DNA of 58,854 nucleotides. Origin: Methanoculleus sp. MH98A (lineage in GTDB: Archaea; Halobacteriota; Methanomicrobia; Methanomicrobiales; Methanoculleaceae). The DNA lies in contig NZ_JMIO01000013.1 in assembly GCF_000691865.1 (NCBI RefSeq), positions 1 through 58,854 on the forward strand. Direction: 5' to 3'. The position numbers and the translations under genes were made by a program. This document shows positions 33,939 to 38,375 of the stretch, piece by piece (positions within the stretch are counted from its first letter, which is position 1; the number at the start of each line of letters is the position of its first letter). The notes beneath the pieces are model-generated. The model made no database searches. It was not told the DNA's origin and saw only the letters and a list, made by a program, of their open reading frames with translations.

Positions 33939-34751
33939 ATGGTATCCATGTCAAAAAATGCCATAGCACTGGTCACGCTCGCCCTTCTCCTCTTCGCGGC
34001 GGGATGCACCACCGTCACCGGGGATAACACCGCTGCCGGCGACGACGCCACACTGCTCGTCTACTCCGGCGCCGGCCTCAAGAAGCCGATGACCGCAATA
34101 GGAGAGGCGTTCACCGAGAAGTACGGTATCGACGTCAAGTACACCTTCGCCGGTTCGGGCACGCTCATCGCCCAGATGGAACTCTCCCAAAAAGGCGACG
34201 CCTTCATTCCCGGCGGGACGCCCGACTACCGGATCGCGCAGGATAAAGGACTGGTCGGGGAGCCCGGCTACGCCGCCTACCACGTCCCGGTGATCGTCGT
34301 CGCGAAAGGAAACCCGAAGAACATCGCCTCGGTTGACGACTTTGCCCGGCCCGGACTGAAGATCGCGCTCGGCGGCGCGAACACCACCGCCATCGGCAGG
34401 GCCGGCGACAAACTCTTCCGGGCGCACGGCATCCTCGACGCCGTCGAGACAAACGTCATCCTCCGGGGGCCGACGATCAACGAGGTGGTCGTGGCGATGA
34501 ACATGGGCACCGCCGATGCCGCGCTCATCACGCTCGATATGGTGAACCCCGAGACGATGGACACGATCGCTCTGGCGCAGGAAGACAGCCTCACCCTTAT
34601 CGTCCCGATAGGGGCGACCACCTTCACGGAGCAGCCGGACGCCGCTCAGGCGTTCGTCGAGTTCGTCACCTCCGACGAGGGGAAGGCAATCTTTGTCGAC
34701 CACGGGTTCCCGGCCTACCCCGACCCGGCATACGCGGGGGTGGAGCCATGA
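33939..34751 (+). CDS. modA: molybdate/tungstate ABC transporter, substrate-binding lipoprotein
   Basis: A 270-residue binding protein. The lipoprotein signal LALLLFAAGC ends at the cysteine that is lipidated. The mature domain shows LLVYSGAGLKKPMTAIGEAF, FAGSGTLIAQMELSQKGDAFIPGG, and VVAMNMGTADAALITLDM, as in ModA/WtpA proteins that bind MoO4 or WO4. A second start at 33948 (MSKNAIAL) is equally plausible. A TATA-like TTTAATATC lies about 25 nt upstream. Methanogens need Mo or W for formylmethanofuran and formate dehydrogenases. Which metal is preferred is unclear. Confidence 0.9.
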   Translation: MVSMSKNAIALVTLALLLFAAGCTTVTGDNTAAGDDATLLVYSGAGLKKPMTAIGEAFTEKYGIDVKYTFAGSGTLIAQMELSQKGDAFIPGGTPDYRIAQDKGLVGEPGYAAYHVPVIVVAKGNPKNIASVDDFARPGLKIALGGANTTAIGRAGDKLFRAHGILDAVETNVILRGPTINEVVVAMNMGTADAALITLDMVNPETMDTIALAQEDSLTLIVPIGATTFTEQPDAAQAFVEFVTSDEGKAIFVDHGFPAYPDPAYAGVEP

Positions 34752-35239
34752 ACGGCACGGAATACACCTGCAGGGCCATCGGCGTCGCCCGGACGCCGTT
34801 CACCGACCCGGCCGCCACCCCCATCCAGGCGACCTTCGCCACCGCCCGCGGGACGGTGGAGGTCTACCCCGAATTCCGGGACGGTCTTGCGGCGCTCGCG
34901 GGGTTCTCCCACCTCATCCTCATCTACCGGTTCCACCGGGCCGCCGGTGAAGAAATCGCCGAACGACCGCTCGTCGACGGCACCGAACCGCACGGCATCT
35001 TCGCCACCCGGCACTTCAACCGCCCGAACATGCTCGGGATATCGGTCGTCAGGCTTACCGGGATTGACGGCGCCACGCTCGCCGTCGAGGGCATCGACCT
35101 CCTGGACGGGACGCCGATCCTGGACATCAAGCCCTACATCCCGGCGTTCGACAGCCTTCCCGATGCTGCCTCAGGGTGGGTGACGCCGCAGCACGTCGAG
35201 CAGATCAAAAAACAGAGCGCGTCCTTCAGGGTAGATTAA
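34748..35239 (+). CDS. trmO: tRNA m6t6A37 methyltransferase TrmO (TsaA family)
   Basis: A 163-residue protein of the UPF0066/TsaA family, which methylates N6-threonylcarbamoyl-A37 of tRNA using S-adenosylmethionine. Signatures are AIGVARTPF, GFSHLILIYRFHRA near residue 53, and HGIFATRHFNRPNMLGISVVRL, followed by DLLDGTPILDIKPYIPAFD. It overlaps modA by 4 nt (ATGA) and lies 2 nt before the permease gene, so it is part of the molybdate/tungstate operon. In that setting a role beyond tRNA, for example in cofactor biology, is possible. Confidence 0.9.
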   Translation: MNGTEYTCRAIGVARTPFTDPAATPIQATFATARGTVEVYPEFRDGLAALAGFSHLILIYRFHRAAGEEIAERPLVDGTEPHGIFATRHFNRPNMLGISVVRLTGIDGATLAVEGIDLLDGTPILDIKPYIPAFDSLPDAASGWVTPQHVEQIKKQSASFRVD

Positions 35240-35241
35240 CT

Positions 35242-36054
35242 GTGTTCCCGAACCGGGCCGCTCTCCCCCGCCCCTCCCCGTTCAAGGCGATCTTTCTCGC
35301 CGTCTCGTTTTGCCTGATCGCCTACATGCTCGTCGTCATCGCCGGCCTCGTGGTCTATCCGCCGCTCCCGGCTCTCATCGAGAGCCTGCTCTCCCCCGAG
35401 ATCCTCTTTGCCGTCGAACTCTCGCTCGTCACCTCGGCGGTCTCTACCGCCTTCTGCGTCATCGCCGCCGTGCCGGTCGCCTACTCGCTCGCCCGGTTCT
35501 CGTTTCCCGGCAGAGGGGTGGCAAACACCATCTTCAACATCCCGCTCACCCTCCCGCCGCTCGTTGCGGGCGTGGCGCTGCTCATCTTCTACGGCCCCTC
35601 GACGTTCGGGAAGATGCTCTCGGAGTGGGGACTCGATGTCATCTACACCCCGCTCGGGATCGTCGTCGCCCAATTCTTCGTCAATCTCCCTTACATGGTG
35701 AGGGTCACACGCTCGGCCTTCGAGACGATCAACCCCCGCTACGAGCATGTTGCCCGGACGCTCGGGTGCACCGAGTGGGGCGCGTTCCGCCAGGTCACCC
35801 TTCCTCTCGCCAGAAGCGGCCTCATCGCAGGTCTGGTCATCACATGGTCGAAGTCCATCGGGGAGTTCGGCGCGGTTCTCATGCTCGCGGGGGCCACCCG
35901 GATGAAGACCGAGACCCTGCCCATCGCGCTTTTCCTGAACATGTCGACCGGGGATCTCGACCTTGCCGTCGCCGCGTCCGTCATCCTGATCGCCATATCG
36001 GTGATCTCACTCGCGGTCTTTGAACGCTACACCGGCGGACGAGGGGTGTTCTAG
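35242..36054 (+). CDS. modB: molybdate/tungstate ABC transporter permease
   Basis: A 270-residue permease with about six membrane helices and the EAA loop RTLGCTEWGAFRQVTLPLARSGLIAG near residue 185, which docks to the ATPase. IPLTLPPLVAGVALL is typical of ModB/WtpB permeases. I start at GTG 35242, just after the trmO stop; a longer frame to 35176 overlaps trmO deeply. The stop abuts the GTG start of the ATPase gene. Confidence 0.9.
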   Translation: MFPNRAALPRPSPFKAIFLAVSFCLIAYMLVVIAGLVVYPPLPALIESLLSPEILFAVELSLVTSAVSTAFCVIAAVPVAYSLARFSFPGRGVANTIFNIPLTLPPLVAGVALLIFYGPSTFGKMLSEWGLDVIYTPLGIVVAQFFVNLPYMVRVTRSAFETINPRYEHVARTLGCTEWGAFRQVTLPLARSGLIAGLVITWSKSIGEFGAVLMLAGATRMKTETLPIALFLNMSTGDLDLAVAASVILIAISVISLAVFERYTGGRGVF

Positions 36055-37104
36055 GTGCTCAGGATCGCCGGGCTCGCCAAACGTCTCGGGGACTTCGCTC
36101 TCGACGGCGTGGATATGACCGTCGACGACGGCGAGTACTTCGTCGTCCTCGGCCCGACCGGCGCGGGAAAGACCATCCTCCTCGAGACCCTGGCAGGGAT
36201 ATACTCCCCGGACGCCGGAACGATCGATCTGGACGGCCTTGATATCACCCGCACCGACCCGAAAGACCGGGGGATCGGCATGGTCTACCAGGACTACATG
36301 CTCTTTCCCCACCTCACCGTCGGGGAGAACATCGGGTTCGGCCTCAAGCAGAGGAAGACCGATCCCGCCCGCATCAGGGAGAGCGTGCAGGAGACCGCGG
36401 CCCTCCTCGGGATCGGGCATCTCCTGGATCGGACGACGGGGACGCTCTCCGGCGGCGAGCAGCAGCGGGCGGCGATAGCCCGGGCGCTCGTCCTCCGGCC
36501 CCGCGTCCTGCTCCTCGACGAACCGCTCTCGGCGCTCGACACCGTCACCCGGGAACGGCTCCGGAGGGAACTGAAGGCGATCCACCGGACGACCGAAACG
36601 ACGGTCATCCACATCACCCACCATTTCGAGGATATATTCGCCCTTGCCGACCGGGTGGCGGTGATGCAGGACGGCAGGATCGTCCAGACGGGCACGCCTG
36701 ATGAGGTCTTCCGGAAACCTGCCACCGAGTTCGTCGCCGCCTTCACCGGCATGGAAAACGTCTACTGCGGGGTTTCCAGGGTCCGGGACGGGGAAGCGGC
36801 GATCGACCTCGGGGAGATCGTCGTCCGGACTGTCACCGCGATCGAGGGCGACGTCTGCGTCGGCATCCGGCCTGAGGAGGTGATCCTCTCCCGCCGGCCG
36901 TTCGAGTCGAGCGCCGCAAACACCTTCCCGGGCACGGTGATAGAGATCCGGCAGAACGGAATGTTTTCACGGGTCGTCGTGGATACGGGACTGCTTTTCG
37001 TCGCCGTCCTGACCCGGCAGAGCGTCGCTCGCCTGGGCCTCGTCGAGGGCGAGCCGGCCAACGTCACCTTCAAGGCCTCCGCGGTCCACGTCTTCAAGCG
37101 GTAG
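36055..37104 (+). CDS. modC: molybdate/tungstate ABC transporter ATP-binding protein
   Basis: A 349-residue ATPase. Walker A is GPTGAGKT near residue 33, Q-loop YQDYMLFPHLTV near 80, signature LSGGEQQRAAIARAL near 127, Walker B VLLLDEPLSALD near 148 and the switch His in HITHHFED. Residues about 230-349 form a C-terminal regulatory region with a TOBE-type stretch (ANTFPGTVIEIRQNGMFSRVVVDTGLLFVAVLT) that may sense the oxyanion. Start is GTG, immediately after the permease stop. Confidence 0.93.
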   Translation: MLRIAGLAKRLGDFALDGVDMTVDDGEYFVVLGPTGAGKTILLETLAGIYSPDAGTIDLDGLDITRTDPKDRGIGMVYQDYMLFPHLTVGENIGFGLKQRKTDPARIRESVQETAALLGIGHLLDRTTGTLSGGEQQRAAIARALVLRPRVLLLDEPLSALDTVTRERLRRELKAIHRTTETTVIHITHHFEDIFALADRVAVMQDGRIVQTGTPDEVFRKPATEFVAAFTGMENVYCGVSRVRDGEAAIDLGEIVVRTVTAIEGDVCVGIRPEEVILSRRPFESSAANTFPGTVIEIRQNGMFSRVVVDTGLLFVAVLTRQSVARLGLVEGEPANVTFKASAVHVFKR

Positions 37105-37138
37105 TATTTATCCGGTCCCCCGGCGCAGGGGCGAGCCG

Positions 37139-37660
37139 ATGAATGCCGACGATATCCGGGAAGAACTCGTCTTTGCCGCCCGGGAGGCCGCCCTCGCCGA
37201 GCGGTTCGGGATACCCGCCGACGCGCTCGTCCCCCTTCTTTTCTCGCTCCGTTACGGGGGTGACTGGAGCTACGCCGCGGAGGGGCTCACCGCGATATCG
37301 GCGGTGAAGAAAACCACGGTCTACGATGATGAACGGCTGATAGGTTACTCGCTTGAGGAGATCTTCCTCTTCGTCGACCCGGTACTCCTGCACCGGGAGG
37401 GAACCGTCTACCGGCTGGAGAAGTGCGGCAGCGCTCCCGCGCGGCTGCTCGTAAAACGGCCCTACCGGGTACGGCTCGGCGCCCGCCGGGTCATCAGGGC
37501 GACCGTTCACCCGCTCGAGAGGACGATCCGGGCCGAAGACCTCGATGCCGCAGAGATGGAGTTCTCTGGCTCCACCGCCTGCGGGATCGACCACGAGATG
37601 GAGCACCTCGCCGGGCGCGAGATCCGCGGGGAGGGGCTCCGGACCTTCCGGTTCGGGTGA
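37139..37660 (+). CDS. divergent peptide-deformylase-like metalloprotein
   Basis: A 173-residue protein, the size of peptide deformylase, with all three PDF landmarks in order. Motif 1-like SYAAEGLTAISAVKKTTVYDD (residues about 44-64, cf. GxGxAAxQ) comes first. Then FVDPVLLHREG and LEKCGSAPARLLVKRPYRV (about 94-115), corresponding to EGCLS with the metal-binding Cys. Last is CGIDHEMEHLAGREI (about 152-166), the HExxH of QHExDHLxG. The catalytic Gln of motif 1 seems replaced. Archaea do not formylate initiator Met, so the substrate must be something else. It lies 34 nt after modC on the same strand; co-transcription is possible. Confidence 0.6.
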   Translation: MNADDIREELVFAAREAALAERFGIPADALVPLLFSLRYGGDWSYAAEGLTAISAVKKTTVYDDERLIGYSLEEIFLFVDPVLLHREGTVYRLEKCGSAPARLLVKRPYRVRLGARRVIRATVHPLERTIRAEDLDAAEMEFSGSTACGIDHEMEHLAGREIRGEGLRTFRFG

Positions 37661-37765: not shown

Positions 37766-37924
37766 TTACACCTTCCGAAACAGGTTCTTCTCCGCACCGC
37801 ACCGGGAGCATGCCCAGGTTTCGGGCAGGTCTCCAAACTCCGTGCGGGCCTCGATCCCCTGGCCGGGCTCGCCGGCCCTGGGGTTGTAGACGTAGCCGCA
37901 GAGTCCGCACCGGTATGAATCCAT
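37766..37924 (-). CDS. rubredoxin
   Basis: A 52-residue iron-sulfur electron carrier. The two metal loops are CGLCGYVYNP (Cys6, Cys9) and CSRCGAEKNLF (Cys39, Cys42), with the expected aromatic residues (YVY, LPETWAC). Start ATG 37924 follows AGGAG; a second ATG at 37927 is adjacent. It is one of two similar rubredoxins 0.3 kb apart on the same strand. Confidence 0.9.
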   Translation of the reverse strand: MDSYRCGLCGYVYNPRAGEPGQGIEARTEFGDLPETWACSRCGAEKNLFRKV

Positions 37925-38216: not shown

Positions 38217-38375
38217 TTACACCTTCTTAAACCGGCTCTTCGGCGCACCGCACCGGGGGCATTTCCAGGTCTCGGGCAGGTCTTCAAAAGCCGTGCCGGG
38301 CTTGACGCCGTGGTCGGTGTCGCCAATTGCCGGGAAGTAGACGTAGCCGCACAGAGTGCACCGGTATGAATCCAT
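38217..38375 (-). CDS. rubredoxin (paralogue)
   Basis: A 52-residue protein with the same length and start as its neighbour (both begin MDSYRC). Loops are [10 protein letters not shown] and [11 protein letters not shown], and the spacer is more acidic and His-containing ([14 protein letters not shown]). It fits canonical rubredoxin slightly better than the first copy. The upstream flanks of the two genes are also alike (CTTCACCTC, then a stretch ending GATAAG(C/T)(A/G)CTCCGGTCA), showing that a unit larger than the gene was duplicated. Rubredoxins often serve rubrerythrin or flavoprotein oxygen reductases; none is adjacent. Confidence 0.92.

Follow-up and report, generated by a model that had tools for sequence, protein, structure and literature searches.

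A methanogen protein family related to peptide deformylase retains its metal site and may act on a different substrate

The DNA analyzed here is a 58,854-nucleotide stretch of Methanoculleus sp. MH98A (contig NZ_JMIO01000013.1), which we refer to as the window. A preliminary description, made from the letters alone, had placed at positions 37139 to 37660 a divergent archaeal protein resembling peptide deformylase (PDF). An open reading frame for 173 residues indeed occupies these positions, the closest named relatives are Methanoculleus, which confirms the archaeal source, and its start codon is backed by orthologues with the identical start position. Relative to eleven Methanoculleus relatives, dN/dS was 0.18 to 0.30; the protein therefore evolves under purifying selection, and the frame is a real gene. 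The gene and the features around and within it are as follows.

33939-34751, + strand: ModA-type substrate-binding protein (domain-model match)
34748-35239, + strand: TrmO/TsaA-like protein (domain-model match)
35176-36054, + strand: ModB-type permease (domain-model match)
36055-37104, + strand: ABC transporter ATPase, WtpC-like (model score of 422 bits, just below the cut-off of 440)
37105-37113, + strand: TATTTATCC box, conserved, roughly 30 nt ahead of the ATG (comparison of upstream sequences)
37139-37660, + strand: gene for the PDF-like putative metalloprotein, 173 aa (open reading frame, homologues, AF2 model with pLDDT 93.5)
37256-37267, + strand: G40-G41-x-W43, an invariant motif of the family's own, without the PDF motif-1 Gln (alignments A1 and A2)
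37418-37426, + strand: E94-K95-C96, counterpart of PDF motif 2 (E88-G89-C90), the Cys being a putative metal ligand (alignments, hhalign register)
37592-37606, + strand: H152-E153-M-E155-H156, counterpart of PDF motif 3, HExDH (alignments, pattern search, hhalign register)

The TrmO/TsaA-like gene sits between the substrate-binding and permease genes of the Mo/W-type transporter, and it is retained in Methanoculleus relatives. The window also carries two tandem rubredoxin genes on the minus strand (37766 to 37924 and 38217 to 38375), which stem from a duplication with a spacing of 450 to 451 bp. The TATTTATCC box is probably a TATA element whose transcript would be leaderless or have a short leader. 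Similar TATA-like boxes recur across Methanoculleus, also where the upstream sequence differs, and they are also found where no transporter is adjacent.

Intact homologues of the PDF-like gene occur in Methanoculleus and other Methanomicrobiales, in Methanosarcinaceae (including Methanosarcina), in the archaeal family f36, and in Methanobacteriota. In the window's phylum, 65 of 393 sampled genomes (13 of 136 genera) gave a match, and these fall in the window's order, Methanosarcinaceae, and f36; a sample of a second phylum gave matches in 35 of 152 genomes. From the named loci and kinship labels, we infer that the family is restricted to methanogen lineages among the genomes searched, with bacteria and other archaeal phyla covered by a single contig scan reaching close relatives. 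No viral relatives were found in the search. In the tree, Methanobacteriota, Methanosarcinaceae, and the window's archaeal family (f1) each formed one side of a branch, and lineage labels changed 9 times against a minimum of 8, a pattern that fits mostly vertical descent with losses. The family is old. The gene is missing from some relatives of the window's genus and order, and it is missing, broken, or fragmentary in several Methanoculleus relatives, including one with a single-contig genome (G008); it is therefore dispensable. Partial second copies comprising the 3' part of the gene lie ~0.5 to 1 kb downstream in L036, L013/L039, L014/L029, and L012/L028/L038, and these are apparently decayed duplicates.

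When 46 diverse members of the family were aligned (alignment A2), E16, G40, G41, W43, R92, E94, C96, R102, R107, P108, H152, E153, and H156 proved to be invariant. The EKCGS and HEMEHLAG motifs reported earlier are present as claimed (the C96 codon lies at 37424 to 37426, and H152 to H156 at 37592 to 37606), and the invariance of C96, H152, E153, and H156 indicates that they are not chance matches. The preliminary description had also made its proposal depend on conservation of the metal ligands in orthologues, and they are conserved: a pattern search recovered RxE[KR]C and HExxH in 89 of 89 intact members, all of which thus keep the Cys and the HExxH that supply the metal ligands and catalytic Glu in PDF. 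The AAEG stretch that had been read as motif 1 did not hold up, since it is not conserved and the conserved block at that point is G40-G41-x-W43; GGxW was found in 88 of the 89 intact members, the sole exception being truncated. The suspected loss of the motif-1 Gln was borne out, given that no member carries Gln where that residue of PDF (Gln50) aligns, and motif 1 (GxGxAAxQ, with the oxyanion Gln) was absent from all family members aligned. Across the family, motif 2 reads E[KR]C[GS], so that the Glu and Cys of EGCxS are kept but the Gly and Leu are not, and motif 3 usually takes the form HExEH (HEMDH in one member, L169).

The window protein scored below the cut-offs of both PDF models (19.5 versus 22.8 for PF01327, and 14.2 versus a far higher 103.95 for TIGR00079). 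When the 46 family members were compared by hhalign with 11 true PDFs (ten archaeal sequences and that of Escherichia coli), the two groups matched over residues 52 to 160 with the Cys and HExxH in register (P of 1e-5, probability of ~82%), and the match was reproduced with a different alignment. The distance from the Asp/Asn-Pro dipeptide to the Cys is 15 residues both in the window protein and in E. coli PDF. Two AlphaFold models, built for different query proteins from partly overlapping alignments, were confident (pLDDT of 93.5 and 93.3). In Foldseek searches of the PDB, the top 27 matches of the first model and the top 8 of the second were all PDFs at a probability of 1.00, and the matches ranking after them were unrelated proteins of low probability. 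The divergent kinship to PDF proposed earlier is thus upheld by the profile comparison and by both models. The suggested comparison of folds gave a mixed answer, in that every confident match was a PDF but superposition on PDFs yielded TM scores of only 0.31 to 0.47 and rmsd values of 6 to 12 Å; clear sharing is therefore limited to the catalytic region. Because superposition was poor, the Gln is absent, motif 2 is changed, and the scores fall below the cut-offs, the methanogen proteins are a separate sister family within the PDF superfamily rather than PDFs. Open-access abstracts on archaeal or methanogen PDF homologues, PF05618, and COG4067 yielded no description of this family.

PF05618 would instead make these proteins putative ATP-dependent zinc proteases, RimB-like and of retropepsin fold. 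This profile matched all 46 members at E ≤ 0.1 (best, 1.6e-19), and several relatives scored 33 to 49 bits, above the gathering cut-off of 27, compared with 16.9 for the window protein. The match spans family residues 32 to 132, however, and leaves out profile positions 1 to 24, and the DTGA motif carried by the genuine PF05618 proteins of Methanosarcinaceae is absent from the PDF-like family. Aligned by hhalign with the DTGA-type proteins, the family gave a probability of 0.4%, the DTGA profile consisting of just 9 similar sequences. While that profile found structures 9g58, 9g59, and 2pma, the A2 profile matched no PF05618 structure, and the same three entries were absent among the top Foldseek matches of both family models. 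The profile-profile and structure comparisons led us to reject the protease identity, which we regard as highly improbable, and the label that Pfam puts on many of the methanogen family members is probably wrong. The likeliest reading is that PF05618 mixes two unrelated families, one DTGA retropepsin-like and the other the methanogen HExxH family, and such a mixture could account for mistaken annotations as "ATP-dependent zinc protease". RimB, a protease that trims polyglutamate (PMC7343187), is modestly similar to PF05618; its role should not be transferred to the methanogen family.

The preliminary description had reasoned that an archaeal protein of this kind should act on something other than formyl-Met. 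No formyltransferase C-domain (Formyl_trans_C) was detected in the window's own genome, making nascent formyl-Met an unlikely substrate, in line with that expectation; the domain was detected in only 2 of 61 relatives searched. The motif-1 Gln and motif-2 Leu of PDF form its oxyanion pocket. Since the oxyanion residues differ in the methanogen family, formyl-Met is probably not its substrate.

Canonical PDFs do occur in the window's order, in genus g17 of family f3 (by deduction, probably Methanocorpusculum), where the eight genomes with matches carry two each. In 23 genomes of this genus, methionyl-tRNA formyltransferase scored above its curated cut-off, and def is directly followed by fmt in the two fully examined genomes (L213:4342-5786 and L214:4361-5780). 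This arrangement suggests that an archaeon either initiates translation with a formylated residue or has borrowed a formylation system, and raises the question of whether initiator methionine is formylated in one archaeal genus. In another archaeal family (f9, genus g60), DSCYSF replaces EGCLS in PDF homologues L097 to L099, and HExDHL is intact.

We compared 95 neighborhoods of the PDF-like gene, with some genomes counted twice. ModA, ModB, and WtpC homologues lay just upstream in 13 of them; twelve belong to the window's genus or to close kin, and the thirteenth (L172) to another f1 genus. These homologues were not found in f1 loci L037 to L039, L042/L171, and L140. FdhD adjoins the gene in three Methanosarcinaceae loci, together with a SufS-like desulfurase in one of these, and SufC/SufB-like genes lie beside it in one f36 locus. 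The remaining neighbors vary by lineage, and a formate or Mo/W gene is lacking from most neighborhoods. These associations hint at enzymes of Mo/W, sulfur, or formate without establishing a partner. All 18 neighborhoods first examined in Methanobacteriota have an upstream gene of ~460 aa, possibly for cyclic 2,3-diphosphoglycerate synthetase; since neither Pfam nor NCBIfam supplied a name for it, we give it no weight. The earlier hint at formate-related chemistry from the adjacent Mo/W transporter is therefore weak: the adjacency is seen, but it is confined to f1, and the gene keeps its own TATA-like box without it. We rejected the Mo/W transporter and FdhD as general functional partners, the associations being lineage-limited and the gene having its own TATA-like box.

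The same neighborhoods bear on whether the protein functions as a deformylase that targets N-formyl amines or peptides, its substrate being drawn from methanogen C1 chemistry (formyl transfer or side products of formylmethanofuran). Formylmethanofuran is itself an N-formyl amine, and the conserved PDF metal site and Glu, the restriction of the family, within the searched genomes, to methanogen lineages, and the juxtaposition with the Mo/W importer in f1 and with FdhD in the three Methanosarcinaceae loci would all suit such an enzyme. Given that every member lacks the oxyanion Gln, that neighborhoods are lineage-specific and mostly devoid of formate or Mo/W genes, and that some methanogens of the same genus or order, likewise formylmethanofuran-dependent, do without the gene, we consider this rather unlikely. 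A narrower version, in which a PDF-superfamily deformylase or amidase specific to methanogens would act on N-formyl amines of methanogenic C1 chemistry instead of nascent proteins, appears more doubtful still, and its candidate substrates (formylmethanofuran or stray N-formyl adducts) are speculative.

The comparisons above support the shared ancestry with PDF as well as the conserved site, and we infer catalysis, metal identity, and substrate. Our preferred reading, to which we assign a probability of roughly 60%, is that a methanogen family of common descent with PDF has kept the metal site, rebuilt the pocket, and hydrolyzes a different N-acyl bond. On the strength of conserved residues and register, C96, H152, and H156 would hold one metal ion and E153 would serve as general acid/base on the metal-bound water, both as in PDF. 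The surroundings of the metal would have been rebuilt, with the motif-1 Gln and motif-2 Leu gone and GGxW, Arg92, Arg102, and Arg107-Pro108 fixed, and the enzyme would most likely hydrolyze another N-acyl (amide) bond, in a small molecule or a protein, rather than deformylate nascent formyl-Met. The weak global superposition, the scores below the PDF cut-offs, and the dispensability of the gene count against this reading. A noncatalytic metal-binding or regulatory protein whose metal site is kept for structure or sensing would also fit the lost oxyanion residues, as well as a gene that is dispensable and has decayed repeatedly. Glu153, the catalytic residue, is no less invariant than the ligands, though, and a purely structural site would not require it, which makes such a protein unlikely. 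Our best guess is a metal-dependent amidase or deformylase whose substrate has changed.

PDFs are regarded as enzymes of bacterial-type translation. A conserved PDF relative with a kept metal site and rebuilt pocket in methanogens would form a new branch of the superfamily, and it would give methanogen physiology a new candidate enzyme.

Three known groups invite comparison. The Pfam profile of the RimB-like zinc proteases (PF05618; 2pma, 9g58, and 9g59) covers family residues 32 to 132, but the methanogen family has no DTGA aspartic-protease motif and the genuine proteases resemble it neither in profile-profile comparison nor in structure. The canonical PDFs of f3/g17 (L089 to L096) are likewise archaeal, belong to the window's order, and have an identical metal site, whereas they possess all three motifs, have one copy in the def-fmt pair, and are not orthologous to the window gene. 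PDF at large (PF01327 and TIGR00079) differs from the methanogen family in having the GxGxAAxQ motif 1, EGCLS instead of EKCG, HExDH instead of HExEH, and 42 residues (in E. coli) instead of 56 between the Cys and the HExxH, and the family falls below its model cut-offs and superposes poorly overall. Nevertheless, both have the Cys and HExxH metal site in identical order and register and conserve an Asn/Asp-Pro, a Glu, and an Arg around motif 2, and PDFs are the sole confident structural matches of the methanogen family.
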